64,000 bases of DNA from Orobanche coerulescens. Its lineage: Eukaryota; Streptophyta; Magnoliopsida; Lamiales; Orobanchaceae. A model generated the notes under the pieces. That model was not told where the DNA came from. It saw only the letters and a program-made list of their open reading frames with translations, and did not search any database. Positions within the stretch are counted from its first letter, which is position 1. Every line of letters begins with the position of its first letter. The DNA is taken from the NCBI GenBank assembly GCA_033398695.1, contig CM065812.1, positions 137,026,858-137,090,857 of the forward strand, given 5' to 3'. The position numbers were made by a program, and so were the translations under genes. Below are positions 3,410 through 47,883 of this stretch, piece after piece.

Positions 3410-3410
3410 A

Positions 3411-5607: not shown

Positions 5608-5614
5608 ATTTATA
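5608..5614 (-). promoter_or_regulatory. TATA box of Ch1 LTR
   Basis: Minus strand TATAAAT directly downstream of the proximal palindrome cluster. Confidence 0.6.
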
Positions 5615-5635
5615 ATATTTTGCACTTTAGCTAAT

Positions 5636-5858
5636 TAGCGCACGCTACAATACATACTTAGCGCGCGCTAATAAGCGTTGACTCCAAATCTGTCCAGGTT
5701 CGTCTGTGGGAATCTTATCCGGACCCATGTCCCGGCTGGCGCATGTGCTAGCCGCCTACCTCAATAATTCAGTGTCTAGCGCACGCAACTCTTACATACG
5801 TAGCGTGCGCTAATAATAGCCGATAGCGCGCGTTAAGCTACATTCTTAGCGTGCACTA
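5636..5858. repeat. Proximal TAGCGC palindrome cluster, Ch1 left LTR
   Basis: Six sites: 5636-5647, 5659-5670 (perfect TAGCGCGCGCTA), 5777-5788, 5801-5812, 5824-5835 and 5847-5858. On the minus strand the cluster ends about 20 bases before a TATAAAT box at 5614-5608. Confidence 0.85.
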
Positions 5859-6013
5859 TCATGAGTTTGCATGAGAAAATTTGCATGTTGTTATACTTAA
5901 GTATAAGGATGCCAATGCAAGAAATATCATATTCCAATAATCAAGACCACAAATCCGAATAATGCAGGGTTTGAATACACATGAAATACACAGTAATAAA
6001 TCCGGATATTACA

Positions 6014-9198: not shown

Positions 9199-9202
9199 TT
9201 CT
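9198..9202. repeat. Co2 target-site duplication, left (TTTCT)
   Basis: TTTCT precedes the TG of the Co2 LTR and recurs at 21177-21181 after its CA. It lies in the Ch1 protease coding region. Confidence 0.9.
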
Positions 9203-10600
9203 TGTTAGGAATACTTGTTAGATTTTGATGATGTCATTAATTTAAAATCAAATGTTTATTAATTGGCAAAATGTAAGGAAGAACCAAATGAGTATCTTCC
9301 ATAGGCCAAAATATGTTAAGTATAACTTGGCAAAATGTAAAGAAGAACCAAATGAGTGTCTTCTGTAGGCCAAAGTTAGTTAGGCTGAAAATCGGCTAAG
9401 TACTAAAGTACAGCCTAGTCCATCGAGAAGTACAATGACTCAGTCGGAGTAGCTCGTCAACTAAAATTTATCGAGAGAAGTTTGACCAGATCACACTGAG
9501 GTACCTCAGGGAAGTCACCCGACTGGACAAGTCACAAACAGTGAACAGCCGAGAGGACCTACTGTAGAGATGTAAGCCGCACATCACCCTACTCAACTAA
9601 ATTCTAGTACTCCAAGTCCACGTCAACATGCTTTGAAAAGTCAAATATTACGGAAAGCTCACATGCAACGTGAAGAGACAAATTGGAGTGATTCCCGCAA
9701 GAGATATGATTTAATTAAATCATCCTGACCCACCGTGAAGACTTTTTATCCTTTTATATTCAAAAGATTCGGCGCTCACATGCGTAAGTCCTCACAACGG
9801 TCGGAAGATAAAATTAAATAATGGGAATCCAACCTTGCAACGCTCGAAAAGATTAAACAATGAAGTCTCCCTCCAACGGACGGATTTGTTCAAAGATTTG
9901 CAACGGCTACAAGGAAGAAGCTCAAGATCGACCTATATATATCCGAGATTTGAATCGAGCAACTACCGTGCGAACATATACTCTAGCGATCAAAGCAAAC
10001 AAAGCAATCTCAAGCAATCAAATAGCATCGTGAAAAGAGCAGATCTAGAAGTTCATTCTTAAAGAAGCTCTTAAGTTGGAGAAGACAAACACTCTTGTCT
10101 ATAAATCTTGAGTACGGGGTACTTCACTGGTTGAAGTAAGAGACTGTAAGGGCATCCGAGGATCGAGGATCAAGAGGTGCAAGGCAGTCAAGTGTGTATA
10201 CAACGGCATGGAATTCCACTGGTTGGAAGCTGTTGTAGTGTGTTGTGAATCACTGTAATATTTATCACTGGTTGAAAATTATAGTGAATTCATCTCCAAC
10301 TGGTTTGGAGAAAAGTGGATTAGTAGAGGATTACCCCACCTCTGAGACCACTATAGATCGCTCGTGTCATTTAATGTTTTATCGCATCATACTCTAACCG
10401 CCTGCATACATTGTTAAGTGTTTCATTAAGTTAATTTATATTCGTCATCACCGACTTCCGCACATATCCAAGAACAAACGACTCCAAGTCATTTGTTTGA
10501 CCATCACCGAAGAAACTCACTCTTCGAGAAAAAGAGTTCAAGAGTTTCAACAAGTCTATTCACCCCCTCTAGACTTGTTCTGGACGACTTGTGACCTACA
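9203..10600 (+). repeat. Co2 5' LTR (1398 bp)
   Basis: TGTTAGGAATAC ... GACCTACA. It contains a TATATATA box at about 9931-9938 and lacks the CpG palindromes seen in the chromovirus and Co3 LTRs. It differs from the 3' copy mainly by small indels at CAG/CTG sites. Confidence 0.92.
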
Positions 10601-16544: not shown

Positions 16545-19455
16545 ATGGCATCTTTTGAAGGCGTAAACTTGAAGGCAGTGAAGGATCAAGTCATCTTCTC
16601 CATGGTCGTCGATTTTGAAGGTTTATTGGAAGCAAATCTAGATGACTTCGATATGCTCAATCTGATCCGGGCGATGAAGCTGAACGGAATCTACCCGTTT
16701 CTCGACATCAACCCGCAACATTTGTTCAAGGAAGATGTCGTCGAATTTTATCGTAATGCCTCTCTGATTCAAAGACGGGATTAACGGCTCGATCGGCGGA
16801 ACCCCTATCACCATAGATCGAGAGAAGATCCGTTCCGTATTCGGGATGAAACATCGCGGCTTGGCGGCCAAGCTCTTAAACAATCACCCGCCGAAACACG
16901 GAAGACGATCAAAATCGAAAACATCCCAGAGAAATTGAAGTTTACAAAGAAAGAGGAATGAGTTGAAAAGGATTTATCGAGTTGCCTTGTACATCACTAA
17001 CAAGATAGTGATGGGGATGGCGGTACTATGACCCTGTCATCATCCAAATTCATGGTATTGGGTGCGTTGATCCAAGAAGAAGAAGTTGATTGGGCGGACT
17101 ATATTTTCAGGCAACTTGTTCGCGAGGTGAACAAAGTCGAATGGCTTGAAGGTGAGAAGAAATTCAAAACTAAGTTGGCGTTCGGAACGCATCTTAGTTG
17201 GCTTTTGGAGAAAATCGGAGTGGCCAAGGGAAACATTGACCCTTTCCACCCGAACAAGAGGCTAGGTCACATGGACCATGACAAGAAAAAGTTGAGTCAC
17301 CGGGAGAGCAGCCCGATTGTTGAAGGATTTGCCAGACTCAAGCTATTGCCCAAGATACGATTTATCAGACTCGGACCAACCTGCAGCTGAGATCGGAACT
17401 GCAGTCGAGTCCGGGAATGAGTCTGACGATACACCAATCGCCATCCGATTCAAGAGACGGGGACTAGCCCCAGCAGGACCCTCTAACCTGCAGTCATCAC
17501 CTGAACCCTCACCAAAGAGGCCAAGGAAGGCTGCGATTCGGCGAGGGAGAGCAACTGAGCACCATACTGGCCATCATCCAGTCACCAATCCATCCAGACT
17601 TGCCTCGCACTGAATCCGAAACTCGGATTGTACCCGTTATTACACCTCCTGTGTACATAACCGAAGAAGAGGAAGCAGGTCTTGTTATCTCTATTCCTGA
17701 AGCAGATTACACTTTCAATCTTTTAGAAAATAATACTTTTAATCTCTCTATTGAGCAACTTCAGCTTGTCAAACCGCAAGCAGAAAAACACTCCTTTGTA
17801 AATATTTTTAAAGAGTGGAAAACTCTCAAAACCATGTCTTTTACAAATTTTCAAATCTTTATTGAAACTAGTGGTTGGGAATATCCCCAAGCCACTGAGG
17901 ATGTTCTGACTAATTTTTGCAAAGAGTCAGATTTAGCTTTACTTCTCCAGGATAACTGGTTCATGTCACATTTTGAGACAAACATGGACCAATTTATCCA
18001 CTCTATAATGCTCAGTATTTTTAATGGCACTTTTGGAGAAGAGGAGGAAGAGGAAGTAGAGAAGGAGATTAGGATTGAAGAAGTTGATGGTGAGAATGAA
18101 ATTAGCAATTTGGAGGCTGAAGAAGAAGAAGAAGAGAAAGAATCTGAAGAAAATATACCAGTTGAAAAACAAACAGAGGAGATTGAGAAAACAGAAGAAG
18201 TGATGGATGAAGGAGATGAAGAAGAAGGAGAAGAAGTAGAGCAGGAAAAAGATGAAGAAGAGAAAGAGGATGAGGATGATGAAGGAGAAGAGAAGGAGAA
18301 AGATGATAATGATGATGATGATGATAATGATGATGGAGGTGAAGGAGGAGCAGAAAAAGAAAAAGAAAAAGATGAGGAAAAAGAGAAAGAAAAATCTGGA
18401 GAAGAAGAGAAAGAAAAATCTGGAGAAGCAGAGAAAGAAAAATCTGGAGAAGAAGAAGGAAAAGAAGGAGAGAGAGAAGGAGCCAAAGAGCCAGAGCCAG
18501 AGCCAGAGGCAACTCATGAAGCTGCAGATAGGATTGTTGTACCTGCCCGGTACACCAGCCTAGACGCAGAGCTGGCAGAGGACTCCAAGTCAAAACCCAA
18601 TCTGACCTACCTGCTGCAGCCAGGAGCCTGCAGTCTAGTGGTTCTCTTGCAGAAGGTTCAGGAGAGCACTCCCCATCAGCTCAGTTATCACCTACCATGA
18701 CTGAGCCGATCAAGCAAATTCTCAGAGACACTATTGGGGAGCTGCTCTCAACTCAGGTCACTCCTGACCTTCAAACCATAAATGCCAAGATTGACACCCT
18801 ACTTCAGCGAGAAATCCCTCAGCCTCCTCCTCCTACAAACAACAGAATGCCTTTTGGCATGTCATCGGATGAGCCGCATGGAACAAAGATTGACAACCCT
18901 TATTGATCTGGCAAAAAGGGGAAGTGAGGATTCAGGGAAGAAAGAGAAATCGAAGCAAGAGGAAGCAGATGTCCTCAGTTGAAGGACCCTCCACTGAAAG
19001 AAAGGAAGTCAAGACCTGTAAGACCAGTCATGCGGCTGTAGGAAAAGAAGAAGGACCAGAGGCACTTTGAACCTACTCTTGAATGGGAAGGGATGGAGCT
19101 ATGGTATGTTGAGGATTTCATCCCATTTGAAGCTCTTGAAATGTGGGGAGCCGCTAAGAAGAGGTTCATCAAAGACTATTATGTCCTGGGAACTACTTCA
19201 AGATGACAAACTCTCCCCACAGAAATCTTCATAAACTTCATGGAAGTAGTTCATCCGAATCTTTGGGTTGTTCTGAAGAAGCACGCTAAGGAGCAAAATG
19301 CCTTTCCTATGATTCCCTTATTCAGAGCTGAAGAAGCACCAATCCGCATGGATGGTGAACTTGATGAGTTACAACTTCAAAAGGAAATCAAGCTAGTGTG
19401 CCTTGAGAATGATTCAGATCTCACAGGAGCAGGATTTCGCAAAGACTTGTGGTGA
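16545..19455 (+). pseudogene. Co2 third ORF: Sirevirus envelope-like / acidic coiled-coil protein (broken)
   Basis: This is the extra ORF that marks one branch of Sireviruses; its function is unknown, and the term envelope-like is historical. Pieces: 16545-16784 (starts MASFEGVNLKAVKDQ), then in other frames around GGTPITIDREKIRSVFGM, 17028-17390, and 17317-17613 (basic, PSPKRPRKA, nuclear-signal-like). The longest piece is 17600-18700, 366 codons with a run of about 170 residues made almost only of E, K and D (17990-18530, GAA/GAG-rich DNA with KEKEKSGEEE repeats). The C-terminal pieces are 18697-18906 and 19240-19455. I see no clear transmembrane segment or signal peptide in what is readable, which argues against a true envelope role here. 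Confidence 0.65.
18030..18480 (+). repeat. GAA/GAG-rich purine tract coding for the acidic run
   Basis: Plus strand almost all purine. It produces long spurious serine- or leucine-rich frames on the other strand. Internal units AAAGAAAAATCTGGAGAA repeat three times near 18390-18450. Confidence 0.8.
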
Positions 19456-19760: not shown

Positions 19761-19772
19761 ATAGGGGGAATT
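19761..19772 (+). promoter_or_regulatory. Co2 polypurine tract
   Basis: ATAGGGGGAATT immediately before the 3' LTR. Confidence 0.8.
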
Positions 19773-21176
19773 TGTTAGGAATACTTGTTAGATTTTGATG
19801 ATGTCATTAATTTAAAATCAAATGTTTATTAATTGGCAAAATGTAAGGAAGAACCAAATGAGTATCTTCCATAGGCCAAAATATGTTAAGTATAACTTGG
19901 CAAAATGTAAAGAAGAACCAAATGAGAGTATTATTTAGGCCAAAGTAATTTAGGATGAAAATCGGCTAAGTACTAAAGTACACCTAGTCCATCGAGAAGT
20001 ACAAATGACTCGGTCAGAGTAGCTCGTCAACTAAAATTTATCGAGAGAAGTTTGACTGCGGCAATGAGGTACCTCGGGAAGTCACCGACTGCACAAGTCA
20101 CAAACAAGGAATGAGAGGACCTACCTGCAGAGATGTAAGCTGCACATCAGCCTACTCAACTACAGCCTAGTACTCCAAGTCCACGTCAGCATGCTTTGAA
20201 AAGTCAAATATTACGGAAAGCTCACATGCAACGTGAAGAGACAAATTGGAGTGATTCCCGCAAGAGATATGATTTAATTAAATCATCCTGACCCACCGTG
20301 AAGACTTTTTATCCTTTTATATTCAAAAGATTCGGCGCTCACATGCAGAAGTCCTCACAACGGTCGGAAGATAAAATTAAATAATGGGAATCCAGCCTTG
20401 CAACGTTCAGAAAAGATTAAACAATGAAGTCTCCCTCCAACGGACGGATTTGTTCAAAGATTTGCAACGGCTACAAGGAAGAAGCTCAGAAGATCTGACC
20501 TATATATATATCCAGAGATTTGAATCTGAGCAACTACCGGTGCGAACATATACTCTAGCGATCAAAGCAAACAAAGCAATCTCAAGCAATCAAATAGCAT
20601 CGTGAAAAGAGCAGATCTAGAAGTTCATTCTTAAAGAATCTCTTAAGTTGGAGAAGACAAACACTCTTGTCTATAAATCTTGAGTACGGGGTACTTCACT
20701 GGTTGAAGTAAGAGACTATAAGGGCATCCGAGGATCGAGGATCAAGAGGTGCAAGGCAGTCAAGTGTGTATACAACGGCACGGAATTCCACTGGTTGGAA
20801 GCTGTTGTAGTGTGTTGTGAATCACTGTAATATTTATCACTGGTTGAAAATTATAGTGAATTCATCTCCAATCGGTTTGGAGAAAAGTGGATTAGTAGAG
20901 GATTACCCCACCTCCGAGACCACTATAATCGCTGTGTCATTTCTTGCTTTATCGCATCATACTCTAATCACGCATACATTGTTAAGTGTTTCATTAAGTT
21001 AATTTATATTCGTCATCAGCTGACTTCCGCACATATCCAAGAACAAACGACTCCAAGTCATTTGTTTGACCATCAGCTGAAGAAACTCACTCTTTGAGAA
21101 AAAGAGTTCAAGAGTTTCAACAAGTCTATTCACCCCCCCCCCTCTAGACTTGTTCCTGGACGACTTGTGACCTACA
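19773..21176 (+). repeat. Co2 3' LTR (1404 bp)
   Basis: TGTTAGGAATAC ... GACCTACA, followed by target duplication TTTCT (21177-21181). It carries intact CAGCTGA and CTGAG words where the 5' LTR shows CACCGA and CGAG. Confidence 0.92.
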
Positions 21177-21542: not shown

Positions 21543-22694
21543 CTAAACACTTTCCTGCGTCTGTTGGATACTAGCTTCCTTCTGAACTGGCTGCGATGAA
21601 CGGTTTCCATTGTACTTGGTGGCATCCTTGCAAAACGTCGCACGGTGCCCTTCCTGTCCGCAATCAAAACATGTAACTGGAGTGTGCAAACAATCACGCC
21701 AAAGGTGGCCTGGGCGAGTACAGTTAAAGCACTTCCTAGCTGTATCCGTCGTAGCTGACATTGTTCCGAAATTCTTTCCGCTCTTAGATGGGTGCGGAGG
21801 TTTCTTGAAAGAATGAAAAGAAGACTGGGCCTTGCGGGGCCCACTGCTCTTGTGCTCTGTAAAAGTACCTGAGACTTTCGGCTTCTTTGTCTCCATAAAC
21901 TTCTCCATTGCTACTTCCTTGATTTCATACGCCAACGCCTTATCTTGGTATTGGCGGAGAGTGGTACATTCAAAACTGGACATGTACCTCTGGATTTCTG
22001 GTTTCATCCTCATTTCAAAGTGAATCATCATCTCTGCATCTGTTCTGACCAAATATCGAACAAATGCTAACTGTTGATTAAACGTCTTAATGGTCTGGGA
22101 TACGGGTTCGTCTGATGGCTGAGCGGAGAAAAACTCCCGAACTTTGGCTTCCCTCACAGGACGAGGGCAGTACTGAGCTTCCATCATCATTTTAAATTCT
22201 CTCCCATCAGCATCATGATCTGCAGGTCGGATAGCTTCCCACCACTCGGATGCCTCCCCAATCAGAAAGTACTGGGCAATATGAGCTCTCCTGTCGTCTG
22301 GGCAATTAATTCCAGCAAAAAATTTCTCCAATTCCTTCAACCAATGATCCCAAGTGGGAGTCTCGGAAAAGCCGTCAAATTTGGGTGGTTGCATTTTCGC
22401 TACCTCTTGCAACCATCGGTCACCTCGATTTCCCATTTATGGGATCCTTTGCTGTCCATCTCCCTGCTGAAGTCCCACTGCCATCTGCATTCGGTCCACG
22501 ACATGGGCGAACTGAGTCATTTGATTCACCACTTGACGAAGTATTTCTGGTACAGCAGGTTCCGGTTCATTATTGATGGATTGTTGCGGCTCGCCTGAGC
22601 TATGACTAGCCTGATTAGAAGGCGACGCCTCCCTTTCAGCATTCCTCTGTCCGCGTCGACGACCGTGACCACGTCCACGTCCTCCTCTCAACAT
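21543..22694 (-). pseudogene. gag: Ch1 gag, main copy
   Basis: Starts MLRGGRGRGHGRRRG at 22694, one T after a predicted splice acceptor. A TAA stop at 22439-22437 interrupts it after 85 codons, where the left copy has a Glu codon; the frame then stays open to 21543. The core gag domain (WDHWLKELEKFFAG, CPRPVREAKVREFF) is followed by a basic stretch and two CCHC knuckles (CFNCTRPGHLWRDC and CFDCGQEGHRATFC). Two knuckles are usual in this lineage. The stop differs from that of the truncated left copy, so the two gags decayed separately. Confidence 0.9.
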
Positions 22695-22695
22695 A

Positions 22696-22798
22696 CTGTA
22701 AGCCCAAATACTTAATATACAGGAAACAATCATCGTTCTAAGGTTCAAGTATAAAAAGGTACAACATGTAAAGAACGAGATAGAGTTTAGGAACTTAC
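22696..22798 (-). other. Predicted leader intron 2 of Ch1, right copy (103 nt)
   Basis: Minus strand donor GTAAGTTCC at 22798. The acceptor end reads GGGCTTACAG here, against GTTCTTACAG in the left copy, and stops one base before the gag ATG. Confidence 0.5.
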
Positions 22799-22913
22799 AA
22801 CCACCGTTCGCATGAAGACGTAGGCAGTACAGTGATGTCATTCACGGCCGGTTACCTCAAAAGACGTAAATGACCCCTATTTTAACCCAATGGCCAAGAT
22901 ATCCATAATCTTA

Positions 22914-22925
22914 GCTCCGATACCA
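22914..22925 (-). promoter_or_regulatory. Primer binding site, right Ch1 LTR
   Basis: Minus strand TGGTATCGGAGC, identical to the site at 3629-3640. Confidence 0.8.
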
Positions 22926-22930
22926 TAATC

Positions 22931-25299
22931 TGTAACACCCCCGATATATTCAGGAATATTACAGCGCCGTAAATCCTTTACATAAAAATTTACAAGGCTG
23001 AAGAAATGAAATGACAATAACATATACCAAATTACGAAAACACTGAAATAAAATACAACAGTCTGGTTCAAAACCGAGAAGACAAATATCCAATGAAGGG
23101 TTATTAATACATCACCAAAAATCCAAACATCATAAACTGATGATGTACTCGAGTACTTATTGAAATGACCAACAAACAACAGATAATAAACCCGGCCGGA
23201 ACATCACTTTGCACCCTCGTCGTCATGCATCTCCAGTGGTTGTTTCCCCGCTCTCCTGGATCCTGAATATACACAAATGTTCACCCCCGAAGGGGTTAGC
23301 ACAACGATGCTAGTACAAGTACAATAATCATACAACAGTGATATAATCAACAATTATATCATAACAAGTTTCTCCAACGAGAAATATCCACAACACATAT
23401 CATATCATAACAGTTTCAACATACTGATGGTATTCCAACGATACAGCGCACACAGCTATAGATTCCCATGATGATCCCGTCGGACCAACACATGGTGGAA
23501 CTACCTGTCCAACGATCCAGCGCACACAGCTATAGATTCCCATGATGATTCCCGTCGGATCAACGCATGGTGGACATATAATCACAACACATTTACACAA
23601 TACAATCACATCATAACTGTCATAATATAAACAATTCTAATTAGAGTACTTGCCTCGGTTCGTTGACAAGAATAAAACTTCCACAAATATCAAAATACTC
23701 GAAGGTCGTCCCCTTCGATCAATCACGTGTCAAGCTCGAACCTTAACAAAAGAAATAGCATAGAATTCATCTCATGCCGTACGAACGTCTAACAATTCAA
23801 AAAAATTACGGTAGGAAGTCCTTAATATGCAATCTGTCTGGATCGCTTACCGCACGCTACGAATCTTATGTAGCGTACGTTAATGCTACTCGTTAGCGCA
23901 TGCAGTACACACAGTCTAGCGTACGCTAACCAGGCATGGTCAGTGCCTCACTGATCAGCCGACTGACTCGCCTGATGACTTAACGCATGCTAAGTTCCAA
24001 CGTGGCGTACGTTAAATGTACTCGATAGCGCACGCTAATTCACATAGCTTAGCGCACGCTAAGCGTGCATGGCAGTTCACTGGAGGGCAGCAGATTATAT
24101 AAATGGTGATGAAGTAAGCGAATTCCTCATTGATTAATGTTTGTTATCCGGCTTCATGTTATGTTTATAACCTATAAAAATGATCTCATGGATAATAACC
24201 ACTTCGAGGTGCAAGTATACGTATGATCATCATAACACCATAATCCGTCTTGATTACAATTCTCATGCGAAGTTGGTGATCTCCGGTTGATGTATTAGAT
24301 TCTACTATCATTATACATATTCAGACTTCATCTTGAGGTGAACTAACAATTCCAACTTATAGGAAAGAATATTTCTTAAGATGATTCTTCCTTTAAGTTC
24401 TTATAACCGAAATAATATCACCTCCAATTCATGATCACAAAGATAACATAAATCATACGGATTTCTAACTTCGGAATGTTTCTCTCATCATTTGAAGTAC
24501 TAGGATTCCAACTTCAAGGTTCCAACAATAATATCGTAATCATAGACATTCCGATCTTCTAAACATGATGTTGTTGAATAATTCACTAATGAAATTCAAT
24601 ATCTCATTAACATGATCATCTTATTCTCCATAACATGAATCTAGAGTTGAAGATAGAATCAACATACCTTAATATGACGAAATCACTGAACCACAAGGTA
24701 GAATCCAACTCCGGTTGGTTATGTGCCACTCCAAGGTGTTATTTCTCTTCAATGATCACTCACAAGTGATAACCAATATTCAAGGATCAATAAGATGTGT
24801 TCTAAGTATGTTAGAAGGATGATTATAGCTCTCTGGCCTTTCAAGAATGAAGAGTGGACGAAGGAAATGTAAGCCAAAACGGGTTGTTGTCTCATTTATA
24901 ATATTCTGCACGTTAGCTAATTAGCGCACGCTACAATACATACTTAGCGCGCGCTAATAAGCGTTGACTCCAAATCTGTCCAGGTTCGTCCGCGGGAATC
25001 TTATCCGGACCCATGTCCCGGCTGGCGCATGTGCTAGCCGCCTACCTCAATAATTCAGTATCTAGCGCACGCAACTCCTACATTCGTAGCATGCGCTAAT
25101 AATAGCCGATAGCGCGCGTTAAGCTACATTCTTAGCGTGCGCTATCACGAGTTTGCATGAGAAAATTTGCATGTTGTTATACTTAAGTATAAGGATGCCA
25201 ATGCAAGAAATATCATATTCCAATAATCAAGACCACAAATCCGAATAATACAGGGTTTGAATACAGATGAAATACACAGTAATAAATCCGGATATTACA
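22931..25299 (-). repeat. Ch1 right LTR (2369 bp), the 5' LTR
   Basis: Same termini and modules as the left LTR: palindrome clusters at about 24920-25145 and 23847-24065, predicted intron 23653-23263, tandem repeat about 23435-23577, palindrome 23145-23156. A few palindrome sites carry extra CG to TG or CA changes. Confidence 0.9.
23263..23653 (-). other. Predicted LTR leader intron 1, Ch1 right LTR (391 nt)
   Basis: GAG|GCAAGTAC donor at 23653 and TTCAG acceptor at 23263 on the minus strand, same as the left LTR. Confidence 0.5.
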
Positions 25300-26505: not shown

Positions 26506-26758
26506 TGTAATATCCGTATTTTTTTCTTTCCCTTGTATTTTCGTTTTTGGTGTATTTCTCGATCGTAGTGACCCTCGTGTACTTTTCAGCGTGTCCTTCC
26601 TGTCAAACGGTTGAACTGTATTCTCGTTATTGTTGTGCGGAACCGCCGTTCGGGGTTGTCGTGGATCCATTTCGTGTTGTTGGTTCCCAAATATTGATTC
26701 CTATCGTTTTATTCTCTTTCCGGATCATTTTTATCATTTTGGGACCCAAAAGGGGGTG

Positions 26759-27042
26759 TGGGCCGCGGCACAAGATGTGCGTGCCGCGGCACACAAATTC
26801 CTTCAGTTGTGGGTCGAACAAACTGTACTGTGTGCCGCGGCACACCCATCCGGTGCCGCGGCACAGTGCCAGGCCAGTGCCACGGCACACCTGTCCGGTG
26901 CCGCGGCACACTCGTGTGTCTTCTGCGACCAAAACCGCTCAGACGGGTGCCGCGGCTGCGCAGCCGTGCCGCGGCATACTGCCGAAACCTGGGAGTAAAT
27001 TTTTGGCCTGTGCCTCGGCACACTTCGGCTATGCCGCGGCAC
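26759..27042. repeat. GTGCCGCGGCAC palindrome cluster, Ch2 5' LTR
   Basis: About ten sites. Perfect 12-mers are at 26781, 26832, 26853 and 26898; variants are at 26759, 26877 (CACG), 26947, 26966, 27010 and 27031. The cluster ends 18 bases before the TATA-like TATATTG. The degenerate copy in the 3' LTR is at about 33533-33785. Confidence 0.9.
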
Positions 27043-27629
27043 ACAATGCGGTCAACCCCCTATATTGTGTCGTTTTGAGCGTCCGCTGCTCATTTCTTCT
27101 TTCTTGTTCCTGCATCGCGAGAGAGAGTGAGAGAGAGGGGGAGAGTTCTTCATCAATATTCATTGGGGGGGTTGATTTTCATCATTTTTCTTCGGTAGTG
27201 AAGCCCGGACGATCAATCCAACGCGTGTTCTACGGATCTTAGTACTTGAATCTCCTAAGGTAATATTTCTAGAACCCTATTTTCGATTAATTTGGGGGTT
27301 TTGGGATTTTCTTCCGATTAGTTCCGTTTTGTTGGTGGATTCATGATGTATATGATTAATATTGTTAGTATCTTTAGTTTTCCTACGGATTCATGGGTAT
27401 TTGGTGGATTTTTACGGAATCGAGAGGGTTTGGTTGTGGTCCGCCCTCGTTGTTATTTTTGGTACGAATATACATGAATCGTAGGCGGGTTTCCGGGTGT
27501 ATTCCATTTCCGTAATCGTCTAGAGTTGGTTGTGATTGTGTTATTCAAATCGTTAGGTTCATTTACGCCGGTTCCTTGTGGTCGTGTTCAACTCTTCCTT
27601 TCCGTTCGTATCACCGTCTATTAACCGAG

Positions 27630-28027
27630 GCAAGTATCCTTATGAACTTACAATCTTGACATAGTAGTTTTGTATGAGAAATTGTGTGTGTGTGTATGCT
27701 CACTACGGGTTAGACTCGACGGGGTCTCGGTAGGGCTCCACGAAGCTGTGGAACCGCGAGCTTGCTTTTAACCACTGTGGGTTAGATCCGACGGGGTCTC
27801 GGCAGGGATCCACGAAGTTGTGGGTCCGCGGTTAATTGTGGTGCATTTTTACAAATGTGGTTTGATTATTGGCATTTCCGGAAATGAGTGTTTTGAAACT
27901 ATGATTTCTTGATTGCATGCATTACTATATGTGTAAGATTTAAGTCGTTCATCTGGTTACTTGTACTAGCGTAATTGCTAACCCCTCTGGGGACCCATTT
28001 TGGGGAAATTCGTTTTATGAATTTCAG
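27630..28027 (+). other. Predicted LTR leader intron 1 of Ch2 (GC-AG, 398 nt)
   Basis: Exon ACCGAG, donor GCAAGTATCC, branch-like CTAAC with its A at 27981 (46 nt upstream), acceptor GAATTTCAG|GTCAGG. The 3' LTR copy spans 34374-34773. Confidence 0.5.
27701..27836 (+). repeat. Two 72-bp tandem repeats in the Ch2 LTR
   Basis: Units share GACGGGGTCTCGG and CCACGAAG and lie inside predicted intron 1. Copy in the 3' LTR at about 34447-34580. Confidence 0.8.
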
Positions 28028-28151
28028 GTCAGGTTCATCGAGACGAGCGGGCGCTGGACCAGTATGCGGATGATGGCCGTGCGTGATGATTGTGCACGAG
28101 TGGTGTCTTGTTGTTTTCTATCTTTTACATTTGTGGTCTTTAAACTAATAG

Positions 28152-28167
28152 AAGTACTCGAGTACTT
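28152..28167. repeat. U5 palindrome AAGTACTCGAGTACTT
   Basis: 16-bp perfect palindrome, also at 34898-34913 in the 3' LTR. Related to GTACTCGAGTAC in Ch1 and TAGTACTCGAGTACTA in Ch5. Confidence 0.85.
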
Positions 28168-28400
28168 AAGAACTTTTACTTGTCGGGATTGGATTGTTGT
28201 TTATTATGTTGTGATGGATATGGTGTCATGTTTGACAAGTTAAACCGGGTGAATTATTTTTTTGGGCGTCTTTATGACGAGGTATTTTTCTGTTGTCTCT
28301 GTGAGTCGATGAGTATGATGCTTGTTCAGCCTGGTGGGTCCCATGTAGGGATTCACGGCGCTGTAATATACCTCGGATATCCTGGGGGTGTTACAGAAAA

Positions 28401-33282: not shown

Positions 33283-35141
33283 TGTAATATCCGTATTTTT
33301 TCTTTCCCTTGTATTTTCGTTTTTGGTGTATTTCGATCGTAGTGACCTCGTGTACTTTTCAGCGTGTCCTTCTGTCAAACCGTTGAACCGTATTCTCGTT
33401 ATTGTTGTGCGGAACCGCCGTTCGGTGTTGCCGTTGATCCATGTCGTGTTGTTGGTTCACAAATATTGAGTCCTATCGTTTTATTCTCTGTCCGGATCAT
33501 TTTTATCATTTTGGGACCCAAAAGGGTGTGTGGGCCGCGGCACAATATGTGCGTGCCGCGGCACACAAATTCCTTGATTGTGGGTCGAACAAATCGCATC
33601 TGTGCCGCGGCACACCCATCCTGCCGTGGCACGGTGCCAAAGTGCCGCGGCACACTCGTGTGTCTTCGCGACCAAAACCCGCTCAGACGGGTGCCGCGCA
33701 CACGCAGCCGTGCCGCGCACACCGCCGAAACACAGGGAGTAAATTTTTGGCTGCATACGCGGCACACTTGGCCGTGGCTGCGGCACACAATGCGGTCAAC
33801 CCCCTATATTGTGTCGTTTTGAGCGTCCGCTGCTCATTTCTTCTTTCTTCTTCCTGCATCGCGAGAGAGAGTGAGAGAGAGGGGGAGAGTTCTTCATCAA
33901 TATTCATTGGGGGGGTTGATTTTCATCATTTTTCTTCGGTAGTGAAGCCCGGACGATCAATCCAACGCGTGTTCTACGGATCTTAGTACTTGAATCTCCT
34001 AAGGTAATATTTCTAGAACCCTATTTTCGATTAATTTGGGGGTTTTGGAATTTTCTTCCGATTAGTTCCGTTTTGTTGGTGGATTCATGATGTATACGAT
34101 TAATATTGTTAGTATCCTTAGTTTTCCTACGGATTCATGGATATTTGGTGGATTTTTACAGAATCGAGAGGGTTTGGTTGTGGTCCGCCCTCGTTGTTAT
34201 TTTTGGTACGAATATACATGAATCGTAGGCGGGTTTCCGGGTGTATTCCATTTCCGTAATCGTCTAGAGTTGGTTGTGATTGTGTTATTCAAATCGTTAG
34301 GTTCATTTCTGCCGGTTCCTTGCGGTCGTGTTCAACTCTTCCTTTCCGTTCGTATCACCGTCTATTAACCGAGGCAAGTATCCTTATGAACTTACAATCT
34401 TGACATAGTAGTTTTGTATGAGAAATTGTGTGTGTGTGTGTATGCTCACTACGGGTTCGACTCGACGGGGTCTCGGTAGGGCTCCACGAAGCTGTGGAAC
34501 TACGAGCTTGCTTTTAACCACTGTGGGTTAGATCCGACGGGGTCTCGGCAGGGATCCACGAAGCTGTGGGTCCGCGGTTAATTGTGGTGCATTTTTACAA
34601 ATGTGGTTTGATTATTGGCATTTCCGGAAATGAGTGTTTTGAAACTATGATTTCTTGATTGCATGCATTACTATATGTGTAAGATGTAAGTCGTTCATCT
34701 GGTTACTTGTACTAGCGTAATTGCTAACCCCTCTGGGGACCCGTTTTGGGGAAATTCGTTTTATGAATTTCAGGTCAGGTTCATCGAGACGAGCGGGCGC
34801 TGGACCAGTATGCGGATGATGGCCGTGCGTGATGATTGTGCACGAGTGGTGTCTTGTTTTTTTCTATCTTTTACCTTTGTGGTCTTTAAACTAATAGAAG
34901 TACTCGAGTACTTAAGAACTTTTACTTGTCGGGATTGGATTGTTGTTTATTATGTTGTGATGGATATGGTGTCATGTTTGACCGGTTAAACCGGGTGAAT
35001 TATTTTGTTGGGCGTCTTTATGACGAGGTATTTTTCTGTTGTCTCTGTGAGTCGATGAGTATGATGCTTGTTCAGCCTGGTGGGTCCCATGTAGGGATTC
35101 ACGGCGCTGTAATATACCTCGGATATCCTGGGGGTGTTACA
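33283..35141 (+). repeat. Ch2 3' LTR (1859 bp)
   Basis: Same modules as the 5' LTR. The palindrome cluster is shorter, and several sites have lost bases at CCGCGG, CAG or CTG words. Target duplication CTCAG follows. Confidence 0.93.
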
Positions 35142-35471
35142 CTCAGTGTGTGGCTATAGATCTTACTGCTAAATATTATCCTACCGATACTGATTATGAT
35201 GGGGAGGCCAGTGCAGATCTTTCTACTAAATATCATCGTACACAAGACTGATTATGATTTGGTCTTTAAGAGCAGTTTGTACGTCTAAATAAATGGTGTT
35301 CTCTTGTATTAATGCCTTAATTAAATAAAACCATGAAGTTTATATAAATAAATATATGATGTTTTCGATAATTTTCATTGTTTAAAGCATTAATTTCCAC
35401 TAAGATTTTATTTTGAATCAAGTGTATGTGAGCGCGTATGAAATATTGTTGTCACATGCCTGTTCATAATC
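35142..35471 (+). repeat. Host block B, part 2 (3' half of gene copy B and its flank)
   Basis: Matches 1777-2103 of block A, including AATAAA. Ends with TAATC, the Ch3 target duplication (35467-35471, repeated at 46290-46294). Confidence 0.85.
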
Positions 35472-35846
35472 TGTAACAGCCCAAAAACAGTGGCTATTAC
35501 AGTGCCGTGGATCCCTCCTGGGACCCACCAGGCAATATCACAATATACACTTAAAATCTGACAACGTGGCACCGTACCACAATATTTATCAAAACCCCGG
35601 TGTGGAGTATGAGTTATTCATATTTTTAGATACAAGCAAACATACACAGGATCCAAACACGGTACAGACCATATGACGATGGGCAGTACCTAACAAGTTT
35701 TAGTACATTCATCCGACACAAAAATAAAACGAAAGTCACGCTTAAAACATAACCGAACAACCAAAAGACTCGGGGCCCCCGAAATAGCATACATCAGAAT
35801 CCTCCGTCGCCATTGTGCTCCTCCTGTGCCTTGCCCTTTCCTCGCC

Positions 35847-36516
35847 CTGAAATACAAGTATTTCGCCCCAAACCACAGGGTCAGCTATACATGATAATAA
35901 TTCTCATGACATTATACAATTCATATATACTGATTTCAAAGAAATTCACCGACTACCGAATATACCCCGAAGGCGTATACACAATCAGTCCCAACTGTCG
36001 AAGATAACCAAATATACGAACGACCACATACTATGGCTCAAGACGGACGTCACAGTACGCCCGATCCGGAAATGTGTCCGTGCACATGTCCACCCCGTAT
36101 ACGGAATCCAGAATATACGTGGGACAATGTACCTAATTAGCCTCACGAACTACGTCTCGTGTGCACGATCTAAATGCGGAAAAACCTCCACGCATGATCA
36201 TCAAGTGCCCGGCTAAAAATCATACACATAACCAATCGGCGCGCAGATATGACTCCAGAGATGTCACGATACAACATGACAACGAAACTCAACGAATTAC
36301 ACTTTTTCCAAGAAATCGAACAACTCACCGAAGTGTCAACAAAGCTCAACGATATCAAGGGTCCAAAAGTACGAATTTGGGTATACAATCCCATGATGAA
36401 AACGGGACATCATCAAGAACAACCTCAAGTCACAAGACACAAGTTTATAGGTGTTTACGAAATGCATAATCATCATAAGAATCCACACATCATTATAACC
36501 AAGCAAGATAACTTGC
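35847..36516 (-). other. Predicted LTR leader intron 1 of Ch3, left LTR (670 nt)
   Basis: Minus strand GAG|GCAAGTTA donor, CTGAC 34 nt before the end, TTTCAG|GGCG acceptor. The right LTR copy spans 44452-43789 (664 nt). Confidence 0.45.
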
Positions 36517-37849
36517 CTCAATTCCGTAGACGAATAATCCTTCCTCGAATGGTCAAACGAACGGTATCCTCGTCTAACAATACTCACGTGAACAAGCAAC
36601 CTTGAATGAAATATAATTCATTCAACAACACATTCGTACGATAATGGTATTATCGCATAAACAATATTCACAAATCGATCATCCTATCGATCATTTTAAT
36701 GTTCTTATTACAAATCATCGTATGTTTATCATGATCATTACATATTCTAACCTTAATGTCAAATTCTTGATGTCTAGTTTATTATTTATGCAATATCGTG
36801 AAAATATATTTTTCAAATCATCGACACTTCCAATTACGATATAATTTGTGTTTAATTACATTCTTCATTATTTACCGACGATTTCATTCAAAACTTGATT
36901 ACTATATGAAACATAAGTTTAAGTTTCTAGTGAATTAAGAACATCATCTTAATTTACGCCTCTTGACATGCATGGATTAATGAAATGGAATTCGGCTATT
37001 CATCTACCGCATTTGTATCATCACAATTCTCTAAAGAACATTATCAACCTATCAATGTAGCGATTAACGCCCTTTAACGAAATCGATAGATTCGAACATA
37101 TGAAGATTACAACTTCCTTCTATCAACATTGTTTTATTTTGAAGAATTTATTAAAAGCCTAGTTATATCATTGAATACTTGAGATTTTTGAAGTAACTTC
37201 ATTCATCTAACAAAGATCATCTACGAAGGATTAATATCATCTTTCCAACAATTTTATTACAAAGGTTTTAGAGGCCAAAAATCATGGTTTCATACTACCT
37301 TCAAGAATCAATAGAATGTTCAAGACCAATTTAACATTTCTTACTTTTAATCATTAAGGATATCATCCCTAACATGTTCCTAGTGTTGAGACTAAAATCA
37401 ACTTCCGATTATCATGCTATACCTCAAGTTTTATGTATATCATTATCAACATAATCACATTATGAAGTTATTTACATCAAGAAGTAACACTAATACCTTC
37501 AAAATTAATCTTCACTTGGTTTGAGTATGATTCAATTAACTTATCATGTTTACACTAGTTTAAACTAACATTATGTGAAGTATTTATCTACTAACATCAT
37601 CATAAGCATGGAATTGATATGAGTTAAAGAAAGACCAACCTTAAAATGAAGAACAACACCAACACTCCAAGGAATACACTTCAATCTCTAGCTCTCCAAG
37701 TCACCAATCAAGTGTTGAAGCTCCAACACAAGTTAGGAAGGCTTAGAAATGAAGTTGGAAGGGAAAGGAATCGTTCCTAAGTTGGGAGATTGAAAGAGGT
37801 CGAGTAGGAAGTAAATGGCAAGTCATACATTTATAATCTGAACTTGACA

Positions 37850-38175
37850 TTACGTACGTTAACGAACGTGGTTAACGTACGTTATATCCTTTACGTACGT
37901 AATCTCATGATCATTACGTACGTAACCAATTTCATCAAACTCTCTGTCTAAAAACACGCAGTTCGTTACGTACGTAACCAGGCAGCTATTACGTACGTAA
38001 TAGCCGTTGACTTGGCTGTCGCGATCGACTCCCGACCACCTACCCTTGCTCGACCCCACCCGCCGAAAGGCGGATTGCTGGAGGATCTTCCGCATTACGT
38101 ACGTTAACGTACTGATATTACGTACGTAAGGCGGCCTACATAGCGTACGTTAAGAATACATGTTAACGTACGTTA
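37850..38175. repeat. TTACGTACGTAA palindrome cluster, Ch3 left LTR
   Basis: Perfect or near-perfect sites include 37850-37861, 37891-37902 and 37914-37925, then more near 37967, 37990, 38095, 38118, 38140 and 38164. In LTR orientation the cluster ends just before the ATTATAAAT box. The right LTR copy is at about 45788-46112. Confidence 0.9.
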
Positions 38176-38352
38176 AGTACTATAACAATCATAAATGGAA
38201 TTCTCGCAATATCACCCAACAACTAATATAGTATGAATGACCATGAATCCAATTTAACATAATTCGTCGGTACTTGCTACAACATCACAGATATGGTGCG
38301 AAAATACTTAACTTAAATCATGGAATACAATATTAAAGGCGAGGGTATTACA

Positions 38353-43408: not shown

Positions 43409-43413
43409 TCTTC

Positions 43414-46289
43414 TGTAACAGCCCAAAAACAGTGGCTATTACAGTGCCGTGGATCCCTCCTGGGACCCACCAGGCAATATCACAATATACACTTAAAATC
43501 TGACAACGTGGCACCGTACCACAATATTTATCAAAACCCCGGTGTGGAGTATGAGTTATTCATATTTTTAGATACAAGCAAACATACACAGGATCCAAAC
43601 ACGGTACAGACCATATGACGATGGGCAGTACCTAACAAGTTTTAGTACATTCATCCGACACAAAAATAAAACGAAAGTCACGCTTAAAACATAACCGAAC
43701 AACCAAAAGACTCGGGCCCCCCGAAATAGCATACATCAGAATCCTCCGTCGCCATTGTGCTCCTCCTGTGCCTTGCCCTTTCCTCGCCCTGAAATACAAG
43801 TATTTCGCCCCAAACAACAGTGGTCACTATACATGATAATAATTCTCATGACATTATACAATTCATATATCGATTTCAAAGAAATTCACCGACTCACCGA
43901 ATATACCCCAAGGCGTATACACAATCGATCCCAATCGTCGAAGATAACCAAATATACGAACGACCACATACTATGGCTCAAGACGGACGTCACAAGACGC
44001 CCGATCCTTGTGTCCGTGCACATGTCCACCCCGTATACGGAATCCAGAATATACGTGGGACAATGTACCTAATTAGCCTCACGAACTACGTCTCGTGTGC
44101 ACGATCTAAATGCGGAAAAACCTCCACGCATGATCATCAAGTGCCCGGCTAAAAATCCTACACATAACCAATCGGCGCGCAGATATGACTCCAGAGATGT
44201 CACGATACAACATGACAACGAAACTCAACGAATTACACTTTTTCCAAGAAATCGAACAACTCACCGAAGTGTCAACAAAGCTCAACGATATCAAGGGTCC
44301 AAAAGTACGAATTTGGGTATACAATCCCATGATGAAAACGGGACATCATCAAGAACAACCTCAAGTCACAAGACACAAGTTTATAGGTGTTTACGAAATG
44401 CATAATCATCATAAGAATCCACACATCATTATAACCAAGCAAGATAACTTGCCTCAATTCCGTAGACGAATAATCCTTCCTCGAATGGTCAAACGAACGG
44501 TATCCTCGTCTAACAATACTCACGTGAACAAGCAACCTTGAATGAAATATAATTCATTCAACAACACATTAAATGCGATAATGGTATTATCGCATAAACA
44601 ATATTCACAAATCGATCATCCTATCGATCATTTTAATGTTCTTATTACAAATCATCGTATGTTTATCATGATCATTACATATTCTAACCTTAATGTCAAA
44701 TTCTTGATGTCTAGTTTATTATTTATGCAATATCGTGAAAATATCTTTTTCAAATCATCGACACTTCCAATTACGATATAATTTGTGTTTAATTACATTC
44801 TTCATTATTTACCGACGATTTCATTCAAAACTTGATTACTATATGAAACATAAGTTTAAGTTTCTAGTGAATTAAGAACATCATCTTAATTTACGCCTCT
44901 TGACATGCATGGATTAATGAAATGGAATTCGGCTATTCATCTACCGCATTTGTATCATCACAATTCTCTAAAGAACATTATCAACCTATCAATGTAGCGA
45001 TTAACGCCCTTTAACGAAATCGATAGATTCGAACATATGAAGATTACAACTTCCTTCTATCAACATTGTTTTATTTTGAAGAATTTATTAAAAGCCTAGT
45101 TATATCATTGAATACTTGAGATTTTTGAAGTAACTTTATTCATCTAACAAAGATCATCTACGAAGGATTAATATCATCTTTCCAACAATTTTATTACAAA
45201 GGTTTTAGAGGCCAAAAATCATGGTTTCATACTACCTTCAAGAATCAATAGAATGTTCAAGACCAATTTAACATTTCTTACTTTTAATCATTAAGGATAT
45301 CATCCCTAACATGTTCCTAGTGTTGAGACTAAAATCAACTTCCGATTATCATGCTATACCTCAGGTTTTATGTATATCATTATCAACATAATCACATTAT
45401 GAAGTTATTTACATCAAGAAGTAACACTAATACCTTCAAAATTAATCTTCACTTGGTTTGAGTATGATTCAATTAACTTATCATGTTTACACTAGTTTAA
45501 ACTAACATTATGTGAAGTATTTATCTACTAACATCATCATAAGTATGGAATTGATATGAGTTAAAGAAAGACCAACCTTAAAATGAAGAACAACACCAAC
45601 ACTCCAAGGAATACACTTCAATCTCTAGCTCTCCAAGTCACCAATCAAGTGTTGAAGCTCCAACACAAGTTAGGAAGGCTTAGAAATGAAGTTGGAAGGG
45701 AAAGGAATCGTTCCTAAGTTGGGAGATTGAAAGAGGTCGAGTAGGAAGTAAATGGCAAGTCATACATTTATAATCTGAACTTGACATTACGTACGTTAAC
45801 GAACGTGGTTAACGTACGTTATATCCTTTACGTACGTAATCTCATGATCATTACGTACCTAACCAATTTCATCAAACTCTCTGTCTAAAAACACGCAGTT
45901 CGTTACGTACGTAACCAGGCAGCTATTACGTACGTAATAGCCGTTGACTTGGCTGTCGCGATCGACTCCCGACCACCTACCCTTGCTCGACCCCACCCGC
46001 CGAAAGGCGGATTGCTGGAGGATCTTCCGCATTACGTACGTTAACGTACTGATATTACGTACGTAAGGTGGCCTACATAGCGTACGTTAAGAATACATGT
46101 TAACGTACGTTAAGTACTATAACAATCATAAATGGAATTCTCGCAATATCACCCAACAACTAATATAGTATGAATGACCATGAATCCAATTTAACATAAT
46201 TCGTCGGTACTTGCTACAACATCACAGATATGGTGCGAAAATACTTAACTTAAATCATGGAATACAATATTAAAGGCGAGTGTATTACA
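43414..46289 (-). repeat. Ch3 right LTR (2876 bp), the 5' LTR
   Basis: Same structure as the left LTR. Differences cluster at CAG/CTG words around 43820-44010. Confidence 0.92.
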
Positions 46290-47420
46290 TAATCCACGTG
46301 CCTCTTTTGCTTAATTATATTGGGTTTCTTCATCATTATTAACGAAGTTATATAAGATATACTTTTTTGGTTTGTCCGACCTCCGTTCATCTATATTACA
46401 ATTCGTATACATAAAAATGAAGTCATAAAGGTTGATCATGTATAATGCAAAGCTTAGGGCATTGTTAAACGACGATGAATAATCAGTATGTAAATACTGA
46501 GTAAACAAACTAACCCACATAAAATATTGTAATAAAGGAGGTTTCAACGAAGATGCCACATGAAAAAGAAAGAGGGAAGTGTATTTTTGGATACATTAAA
46601 ACTAAAAGAAAAAAACATCAAAAGTCGCAATGAAAAGCAACAAGTGGAAGAAAACATCAAGTTGTGTAGAATTAAAACATCAACTTAGAATTATAATATT
46701 TTACACATGATATCAAGTTTGATATAAGAAAACATCGACTACTAAACAAGAAAACACCTATTCATGTAGAAGAAAACATCAACTAATTGATGTAACCTAA
46801 GTTCTACTTTAGAAAATATCAAGTATGTAAGAAATAAACATTAAAATGGTAGAGTTAAACATCAAAAGTGGTAGAATTAAACATCAACTCAAATATATCG
46901 TTTTAACGTATAACACCAAATATGACTTATTTAAACAATAAATGTAGTAGAACTATTCATCATTTTACATAGTACTAAACATCATGTCCTATAGATATAA
47001 ACATCAACTTTGATAAATTAAAACATCAACTCAGGTCGTCTTAAACTATAACATCAATGTAATCCAATTAAATATCAAATATTGTATAAATAAACATCAT
47101 TCTAAAACATAATATTAACATGTCCATATATATTTCATAAAACAAACTATCGTCAAGTGAAATTTTACGCAAGTTCTGCTTCAGAAAACATCAAATATAG
47201 AAGTAAACATCAAAAGTTGTAGAATTAAACATCAATACTTGTAGAATTAAACATCAACTCAAGTATATCATTTTAACATTCAACATCAAATAGGACTTCT
47301 TTAAATAACAAATGTAGTAGAAGTAAACATCCAGTCTATCATGACCCGTCTATATTTATGGTATGACGTCATTAAAAAACAACAAGTCTTTAAGAACAAA
47401 ACATCAAGATGCACGAATCC
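46290..47420. repeat. Host block B, part 3, with a long AAACATCAA repeat tract
   Basis: 46290-46890 matches 2099-2612. The AAACATCAA tract runs from about 46600 to 47420 with several dozen degenerate units in one orientation, many preceded by GTAGAATTA. No coding potential. Confidence 0.75.
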
Positions 47421-47883
47421 TTCCTTGTAGTTGATTTTACCATCTTACCCATGTTGTATTATATTTGTTGGATAATGGATGATGCTGGTCCAACGGCCAT
47501 GGTTTAATCAGCATGGTGCTGAATTTGTAAATTTAGTACCGTAACGGTGTTTTTTTTTAATTTGGAAAGGGTAATAAATTCCACAATTAATTCCACTTTT
47601 TTAACATTAAATGCCCCTTATACTTATCCTTTCCTTTTTCCCTCAAAATATATTCCTGCCCAAATATACAAATATATATACATAAACATATGCATAAATT
47701 AAAATATTTACCATGTGTCCTATTATGTATTATAAGACAAATATGAATCGTTACACCTAATAATACTCATTAGTTATAATAATCAAATAGATAACTACAT
47801 GATAATAAAATTCTCATATAAATAAATAAATACAATAATAATTTTAACTGGGTTCAAAAATAATACCAGGTCGGGATATTACA
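47421..47883. other. AT-rich spacer, no gene seen
   Basis: Ends with GGTCGGGATATTACA (47869-47883), which looks like one end of an LTR of the chromovirus type, but no partner end is visible. Confidence 0.4.

Follow-up and report, generated by a model that had tools for sequence, protein, structure and literature searches.

To our knowledge, what activates the large LTR retrotransposons of plants is an open question, and so is the persistence in their promoters of CpG-rich sites that decay under methylation. The stretch of DNA analysed here, 64 kb in length and referred to below as the window, is a nest of LTR elements, inferred from the element types to be of plant type, with a CpG observed/expected ratio of 0.99. 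Clusters of short CpG-containing palindromes stand ahead of TATA-like boxes in these elements, and the question raised by the locus is what such clusters do.

The LTR elements of the window

The LTR families carrying clusters were designated Ch1 to Ch7 (Table 1). The two Ch1 LTRs share 98.0% identity across 2369 aligned bases, with an LTR length of approximately 2.37 kb if the two PBS sites mark the LTR ends. Coding matches in Pfam for both Ch1 and Ch2 comprised RT, RNase H, integrase zinc-binding and C-terminal SH3/chromodomain, the Ch2 ORFs encoding gag/PR, RT, RH/INT and chromodomain. In each of the two elements SH3_Tf2-1 was followed by Chromo, the latter at E 0.0016 and 0.00028 and in both cases under Pfam's score cut-off. 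Ch3 is frame-broken, with a protease match and a sub-threshold Ty3 capsid match in Pfam; its DNA is 71-78% identical to pol stretches of Ch1 or Ch2, and its C-terminus, read from a frame-broken stretch, resembles that of Ch2 (E 3e-37). Judged by coding sequence, Ch1, Ch2 and Ch3 are assigned to the chromoviruses. The internal sequence of Ch2 and Ch3 measures about 5 kb each. Ch7 may be a further chromovirus, judging by a match to gag at 63106-63432 (26% identity, E 1e-8), and has a Met-type PBS at 61942. No coding sequence was found for Ch4 or Ch6 in the window by tblastn, and both are represented here by their LTRs only.

Ten LTRs of the window are of the TGTAAT type: two each of Ch1, Ch2 and Ch3, one each of Ch4, Ch6 and Ch7, and an AT-rich one. 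The start pattern TGTAATAYC was present at nine of the ten, the one lacking it being the second LTR of Ch3, which was placed by alignment; an additional TGTAATAYC at 12930, within the nested copia element, was left out of the count. Parts of the AT-rich LTR recur in 1392-2615 as three stretches of 95.6-97.6% identity. Behind the left Ch1 LTR (region 2613-6013) come a PBS and the beginning of an internal region, and the repeat that it forms with 21897-25299 extends into gag; two Ch1 copies seem to share one LTR, or else there seems to be a second partial element at 2613-6013. The copia element nested inside Ch1 is 12 kb in length and has a 410-aa ORF (17468-18700) after pol that yielded no Pfam match even at E 10; its position suits an envelope-like ORF. 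No palindrome clusters occur in the LTR of this element.

Table 1. Positions of LTRs, palindrome clusters and TATA-like words in the window.
Feature	Position	Strand	Basis or content
Ch1 LTR	3645-6013	-	Self-alignment; PBS at 3640, then gag start
Ch1 upstream cluster	5636-5858	-	TAGCGYRCGCTA-type (class A), 6 sites
Ch1 TATAAA	5609-5614	-	21 bp past last site
Ch1 downstream cluster	4563-4776	-	Same word as upstream cluster; 12-14 sites per LTR over both clusters
Ch1 other LTR	22930-25299	-	Self-alignment; PBS at 22925
Ch1 other LTR upstream cluster	24922-25144	-	6 sites
Ch1 other LTR TATAAA	24895-24900	-	
Ch1 other LTR downstream cluster	23848-24061	-	
Nested copia element inside Ch1, LTRs	9202-10600 and 19772-21176		RVT_2 match
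Ch2 left LTR	26506-28395	+	Self-alignment; Met-type PBS at 28401 (pattern)
Ch2 left cluster	26760-27042	+	10 GTGCCGCGGCAC-type sites (class B) within 2 mismatches, 4 perfect
Ch2 TATA-like box CTATAT	27060-27065	+	17 bp past last site
Ch2 right LTR	33283-35141	+	Self-alignment
Ch2 right LTR cluster	33532-33653	+	5 sites within 2 mismatches; degenerate remnants downstream to CTATAT 33804
Ch3 LTRs	35470-38352 and 43412-46289	-	Self-alignment; right ends placed via TGTAAT start and alignment
Ch3 cluster	37850-38175	-	TTACGTACGTAA-type (class A), 10 sites
Ch3 TATAAA	37830-37835	-	
Ch3 other LTR cluster	45787-46112	-	Same cluster as 37850-38175
Ch3 other LTR TATAAA	45767-45772	-	
AT-rich LTR	46396-47883	-	Chromovirus-LTR start TGTAATATCC; without CpG palindrome cluster
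Ch5 LTR	49391-50762	+	Starts TGTTGG, ends CCAACA; PPT directly before
Ch5 cluster	49671-50179	+	12 TAGCGCACGCTA-type sites (class A)
Ch5 TATA-like word TATAAATA	50221-50228	+	
Ch4 single LTR	starts 53731	-	
Ch4 cluster	53197-53518	-	TTACGGCCGTAA-type (class A), 12 sites
Ch4 TATA-like word CATAAATA	53179-53186	-	
Ch6 single LTR	starts 55677		
Ch6 cluster	56490-56801	+	TTACGGCCGTAA-type, 12 sites including deviant pair TTGCGTACGCAA, TTGCGTGCGCTA
Ch6 TATATA	56814-56819	+	
Ch7 single LTR	starts 58611		
Ch7 cluster	59103-59421	+	GTGCCGCGGCAC-type (class B), 7 sites within 2 mismatches, 9 within 3
Ch7 CTATAA	59437-59442	+	

Palindrome clusters

When 12-bp palindromes were counted in 600-bp intervals, with low-complexity words excluded, the best interval of each cluster contained between 10 and 23, compared with a mean of 2.3 and a maximum of 5 in 120 dinucleotide shuffles. 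The Ch2 cluster at 26760-27042 scored 23. The other words named in the first-pass annotation likewise form clusters at the LTRs to which it assigned them, and the remaining intervals scoring above 5 were AT microsatellites. A second scan admitted centre gaps of 0-7 with at least two C/G per half and listed intervals of at least 7, the null maximum being 4 in 60 mononucleotide shuffles. It left the places found by the first scan together with one tandem-repeat artefact at 49201. Apart from this artefact only gap 0 was found, discounting gapped palindromes, and the shuffles rule out chance or base composition as the source of the clusters.

In total, 12 clusters were located across ten LTRs. Both Ch1 LTRs have two clusters, whereas the two Ch2 LTRs, the two Ch3 LTRs and the single LTRs of Ch4, Ch5, Ch6 and Ch7 have one apiece. 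A cluster had been claimed for all chromovirus LTRs, which is too broad: nine of the ten TGTAAT-type LTRs in the window carry one, and the tenth, the AT-rich LTR starting at 47883, has none. No external relatives were found in viral contigs or prokaryote genomes, collections that are uninformative for plant-type sequence.

A deviant pair occupies the same place in the related LTRs of Ch6 (56716-56750) and Ch4 (53247-53281), as TTGCGTACGCAA and TTGCGTGCGCTA in the former and as two copies of GTACGTACGTAA (Ch4 strand) in the latter, indicating that words can mix inside one cluster. Another 12-bp palindrome, GTACTCGAGTAC, was observed once in the 3' part of each Ch1 and Ch2 LTR (3860, 23145, 28154 and 34900) and once near 54943; it is perhaps a conserved single-copy site. 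In the Ch5 LTR, tandem AAAGTTACCTGATCAG-like units (49520-49660) lie immediately upstream of the palindrome cluster.

Placement before the TATA-like box

The first site of a cluster lies approximately 155-813 bp from the LTR start. The last good site precedes the TATA-like word by 21 bp in Ch1, 17 bp in Ch2, 14 bp in Ch3, 10 bp in Ch4, 12 bp in Ch6 and 15 bp in Ch7, using a list of TATA words that was composed after viewing the sequence and to which one word was added for Ch4. Clusters thus end shortly before a TATA-like box, as had been proposed, at 10-21 bp in the six clustered TGTAAT-type families; the corresponding distance in Ch5 is 41 bp. In four of these six families (Ch2, Ch4, Ch6 and Ch7) no second TATA-like word occurs within 1300 bp of the LTR start. 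The Ch2 cluster as originally described holds for the left LTR, with its ten sites, but only in part for the right LTR, which retains five of the ten within two mismatches. In this second LTR the CTATAT is kept and is again the sole one in 1300 bp, with degenerate sites adjoining it. In each Ch1 LTR the second cluster stands approximately 830 bp beyond the TATA box, where it may act as an enhancer or a second promoter.

Site anatomy and CpG decay

In class A (59 sites) the information content falls to near zero beyond 12 bp. What the class has in common is an outer T followed by a CpG in positions 4-5 (1.72, 1.61 and 1.79 bits), with positions 2, 3 and the centre varying between families. The 18 sites of class B have a two-base extension (0.39 and 0.63 bits), and weak flanking preferences of up to 0.49 bits were seen in Ch3 alone and in Ch4/Ch6 alone. 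Each site is near-palindromic by itself, at 9.92 of 12 bases, paired sites agree at approximately 10 of 12, and every word has at least two CpGs. The Ch5 sites are mostly imperfect palindromes with the centre CA in one orientation in 10 of 12 and TG in none, which makes the Ch5 array directional.

Among the 228 CpG cells of class A (57 sites) there were 13 deviations, and all 13 were transitions, as CpG decay would give. Between the two LTRs of one element, 18.3% of CpGs had changed in Ch1, 17.7% in Ch2 and 5.6% in Ch3, compared with 4.0%, 7.4% and 1.8% of all dinucleotides, a rate 2.4 to 4.6 times the dinucleotide average. Among these CpG changes, CG had become TG or CA in 18 of 20 cases for Ch1, 11 of 22 for Ch2 and 4 of 7 for Ch3. 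Fast change of CpGs is expected if inserted copies are methylated.

Between related LTRs (Ch2/Ch7 and Ch4/Ch6) the sites are 81-86% identical, compared with 54-64% for the sequence between sites and 60-61% downstream, in alignments that are partly anchored by the sites themselves; this lends support, and not proof, to the sites being better conserved than their surroundings. Symmetric double changes within sites were not commoner than in shuffles (5 against 3.95 expected, P 0.34, 83 sites). Compensatory symmetric change was accordingly discarded as proof of dimer binding, and selection for symmetry as such is unsupported. A coordinated change of word at homologous Ch1 and Ch3 sites was likewise set aside as undecidable, since the alignment is held together mainly by the sites.

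Fixed spacing of paired sites

The sites are paired at a fixed distance, a feature overlooked in the first-pass annotation. For T--CG--CG--A words the arrangement is 12-N11-12, or 23 bp from start to start, and for GTGCCGCGGCAC it is 12-N9-12, or 21 bp. Successive start gaps were 23, 23, 24, 118 and 23 in the upstream cluster of Ch1; 23, 23, 23, 106, 23, 52, 23, 18 and 23 in Ch3; and 23, 76, 23, 76, 23, 103, 23, 44, 53, 30 and 23 in Ch5, where five pairs are counted at exactly 23 bp. Those of Ch2 were 21, 51, 21, 24, 21, 49, 19, 44 and 21, representing four pairs at 21 bp and one at 19 bp. Gaps of 20-24 bp were enriched in 11 of 12 clusters (p < 0.02) relative to random placement in the same span, the bin having been picked post hoc, the p values being uncorrected and the two LTRs of one element not being independent. 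The exception was the degraded second Ch2 LTR (p 0.27). A distance of 23 bp is approximately 2.2 helical turns and therefore no whole number.

Stronger evidence for this spacing comes from the word-independent core TnnCGnnCGnnA, which occurs 69 times in the window, all LTR copies included, where 10.1 occurrences are expected from base composition; 62 of the 69 lie inside class A clusters. With one LTR taken per family, 16 of the 34 TnnCGnnCGnnA distances of 60 bp or less were exactly 23, and in 5000 random placements no single distance arose more than 7 times. The remaining 18 of these distances take other values, and some sites stand without a partner. In class B, the core GCCnnGGC was found 32 times in the window against 5.1 expected, with 23 occurrences in three clusters and 9 outside; in Ch2 and Ch7 the commonest distance was 21 bp (5 of 16), a count made without a random control.

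Spacer identity within exact pairs was near random, at 0.18-0.33, in Ch1, Ch2, Ch3, Ch5 and Ch7, the values for Ch7 and for the downstream clusters of Ch1 each being drawn from two spacers. The description of the sequence between sites as unrelated suits these five families, but not Ch4 and Ch6, with identities of 0.52 and 0.45, where some duplication history is visible.

A copia-type LTR with the word of a chromovirus

The ends of the Ch5 LTR and its junction, the features from which it was classed, suggest that it is of Ty1/copia type. It is preceded by aaggggag-AT, which is one base off the Sirevirus junction octamer with its AT/TG as given in PMC2829016. Around the PPT/LTR junction lies an inverted repeat of 12 bp (92%), one among 20 listed pairs that are mostly AT microsatellite. 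Its left arm borders the polypurine tract directly, a position given for Pseudoviridae in the same source (PMC2829016). No copia coding sequence was found beside this LTR in the window.

Ch5 carries the word of Ch1 and its 23-bp spacing, and the LTRs of Ch1 and Ch5 otherwise align only in three short site-centred matches of 39-55 bp. The Ch5 cluster refutes a confinement of clustering to chromoviruses. It had been held that the word depends on the family and that there is one specificity per family; the first statement fails and the second is unsupported, as chromovirus Ch1 and copia-type Ch5 use one word, and Ch4 and Ch6 each include a deviant pair. A host factor is the best explanation for one word and one spacing being present in both a copia-type LTR and a chromovirus.

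Proposed mechanism and alternative explanations

The observations on which a mechanism can be built are the palindromes, their clustering, their fixed spacing, their placement and the higher conservation of the sites. The clusters would serve as the activating part of the LTR promoter, upstream of its TATA box, and each 12-bp palindrome there may be the site for a two-fold symmetric DNA-binding protein, presumably a dimer. Two sites placed 23 bp (T--CG--CG--A) or 21 bp (GTGCCGCGGCAC) apart would form a composite element bound cooperatively by two dimers, and a stack of several composite elements just before the TATA box would bring transcription to the LTR. A transcription factor of the host is the most likely candidate for the protein. 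Classes A and B would call for at least two factors or paralogues, and within class A paralogues or variants would differ in the bases they prefer at positions 2, 3 and the centre. We know of no NAC, SBP, CAMTA, LBD or MYB site that fits all of the words. The original suggestion of sites for a dimeric regulator remains compatible with the two-fold symmetry, the fixed spacing, the conserved sites and a class A information content that ends at 12 bp. Against the simple model, the Ch1 cluster downstream of the TATA box is not explained by upstream activation, and the LTRs of the nested copia element and of the AT-rich kind (47883) lack such a cluster. Further points against it are the directional array of mostly imperfect palindromes in Ch5, symmetric double changes that are no commoner than in shuffles, the approximately half of short TnnCGnnCGnnA distances that differ from 23, a spacing of 2.2 helical turns, and the class B core matches that fall outside the clusters. 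On balance, LTR transcription is probably driven by a host transcription factor of two-fold symmetry that occupies the paired sites cooperatively; binding, dimers, cooperativity, activation and host origin are what we infer.

The pairs may alternatively be a leftover of tandem duplication, whereby a site-spacer-site unit was copied and the spacing was inherited and not selected. The spacer identities of Ch4 and Ch6 are what this would leave behind, as are the chains of 23-bp period in Ch1 and Ch3 and the single orientation of the Ch5 sites, but it sits poorly with spacers that are near random in Ch1, Ch2, Ch3, Ch5 and Ch7 while the sites agree, and with the recurrence of 23 bp both across families whose words differ and in an LTR of copia type. 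Duplication may have been a route by which sites spread; as the origin of the spacing it is improbable. An explanation in which CpG-dense islands act as methylation sensors or platforms for methyl-readers, with the exact words secondary, draws on the CpGs present in every word, on their fast loss from inserted LTRs and on the report that Sirevirus repeated motifs form CpG islands (PMC2829016). It leaves unexplained the 12-bp words, the conserved outer T/A, the family-specific positions 2-3 and the 23- or 21-bp spacing, and we consider it very unlikely.

A role at the level of RNA, with palindrome hairpins feeding small-RNA silencing or serving as packaging or dimer signals, would be compatible with placement before the TATA box, since the transcribed genomic RNA still includes U3 at its 3' end. 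In principle, a 12-bp stem with a 9-11 nt loop could form between neighbouring sites, and the palindromes of Sireviruses in maize have been reported to draw small RNAs (Bousios 2016, as presented in PMC10760457). Folding, which covered three of the 12 clusters (Ch2, Ch3 and Ch5), was far better than in dinucleotide shuffles for Ch2 and Ch3 (z -6.3 and -6.0), yet the Ch5 cluster, with 12 sites at the same spacing, gave z -0.93 and was equalled or exceeded by 16 of 100 shuffles. Moreover, a hairpin between two sites needs no palindromy in each site, yet the sites are palindromic at 9.92 of 12, and the complementarity of adjacent sites, only slightly above that of non-adjacent ones (9.95 against 9.62 of 12), is paralleled by their direct identity (10.31 against 10.02). 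RNA structure is thus no feature that the arrays have in common, though it may play a part in silencing some families, and as a general explanation its chances are small. An element-encoded anti-silencing protein comparable to VANC, binding the arrays of its own family and co-evolving with them to give one word per family, would account for the words that differ among chromovirus families and for the same-oriented array of Ch5; VANC proteins bind dense, same-oriented short motifs in non-coding TE DNA, with targets that differ between related families (PMC5735166). Among the 52 stop-to-stop ORFs of at least 120 aa, however, no element-encoded regulator was found, Pfam at E ≤ 0.001 returning only gag, protease, RT, RNase H, integrase and related retroelement domains in a search that would miss an undescribed, broken or short regulator. 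The internal sequence of Ch2 and Ch3 would fit little besides gag-pol, chromovirus Ch1 and a copia-type LTR have one word and spacing in common, and VANC targets expanded as tandem repeats, in contrast to the mostly unrelated spacers here. The chance of such a protein being responsible is accordingly very slight.

The favoured reading, cooperative paired sites for a host factor, can be extended. In the extended form, unrelated LTR retrotransposons of one genome, Ty3 chromoviruses and a Ty1/copia-type element, would have independently built their promoters on a shared grammar of T--CG--CG--A pairs at 23 bp, read by paralogous host factors, and families would switch the variable bases to follow different paralogues. 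The near-obligatory CpGs would then point to factors that tolerate or prefer methylated CpG. We regard this as unlikely; if true, the elements would be transcribable from methylated chromatin. A fixed-spacing grammar of two classes in Ty3 and Ty1 elements makes the 35-bp pair a direct probe for the factor, and TnnCGnnCGnnA occurring twice at a distance of 23 bp provides a simple survey pattern for plant LTRs.

Comparison with known systems

The first-pass annotation knew of no description of such an arrangement. Palindromic, CpG-rich motifs upstream of the TATA box were in fact published for Sireviruses in 2010 as repeated motif (RM) boxes (Bousios et al. 2010; PMC2829016). According to that text, each element has at least eight copies of a palindrome specific to it, which are grouped within the LTR half lying upstream, the word varies by element, the flanks are diverged and a conserved TATA box follows shortly after, at an average of 37 bp from the CpG island. 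Within the set of Ty1/copia elements compared there, RM boxes were reported as specific to Sireviruses, 12 of 13 having a CGG-CCG core (PMC2829016). Among the open-licence papers listed, no title or opening of an abstract described the chromovirus case, the exact words or the paired palindromes, and searches for the exact words in print matched only papers unrelated by title and abstract. The kind of feature is therefore already known; the chromovirus carriers, the fixed pairing and the word that crosses superfamilies look new. Retand elements have been surveyed in PMC11963269.

Other systems share parts of the design. VANC target motifs belong to VANDAL DNA transposons, are bound by an element-encoded protein and spread as tandem repeats (PMC5735166). 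Like them, the arrays described here are dense short motifs in non-coding TE DNA whose words differ between related families, and sites have the same orientation within an array, as in Ch5; unlike them, no cognate protein was seen in the window, and the string 'palindrom' is absent from the text of PMC5735166. The cis-regions of maize Sirevirus LTRs are described as palindrome arrays with strong predicted RNA structure (Bousios 2016, as presented in PMC10760457). Those are copia elements with a gapped palindrome, whereas the copia-type array here folds no better than shuffles.

The closest likeness is to RM boxes. Eight or more sites were found in Ch2 (10), Ch3 (10), Ch4, Ch5 and Ch6 (12 each) and Ch1 (12-14), with fewer in Ch7 (7), and the cluster similarly ends near the TATA box, here at 10-21 bp in six families and at 41 bp in Ch5. 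The CGG-CCG core occurs in only one of the four main words, TTACGGCCGTAA (Ch4 and Ch6); it is absent from TAGCGCGCGCTA and TTACGTACGTAA, and GTGCCGCGGCAC has the reverse order CCG-CGG. Unlike RM boxes, the sites here form pairs at 23 or 21 bp, RM pair spacing going unmentioned where the text of PMC2829016 deals with spacing, and the carriers are the chromoviruses Ch1, Ch2 and Ch3, with only Ch5 of copia type. A fixed-spacing grammar common to Ty3 and Ty1 elements would shift Sirevirus repeated motifs from the oddity of one genus towards a general promoter design.
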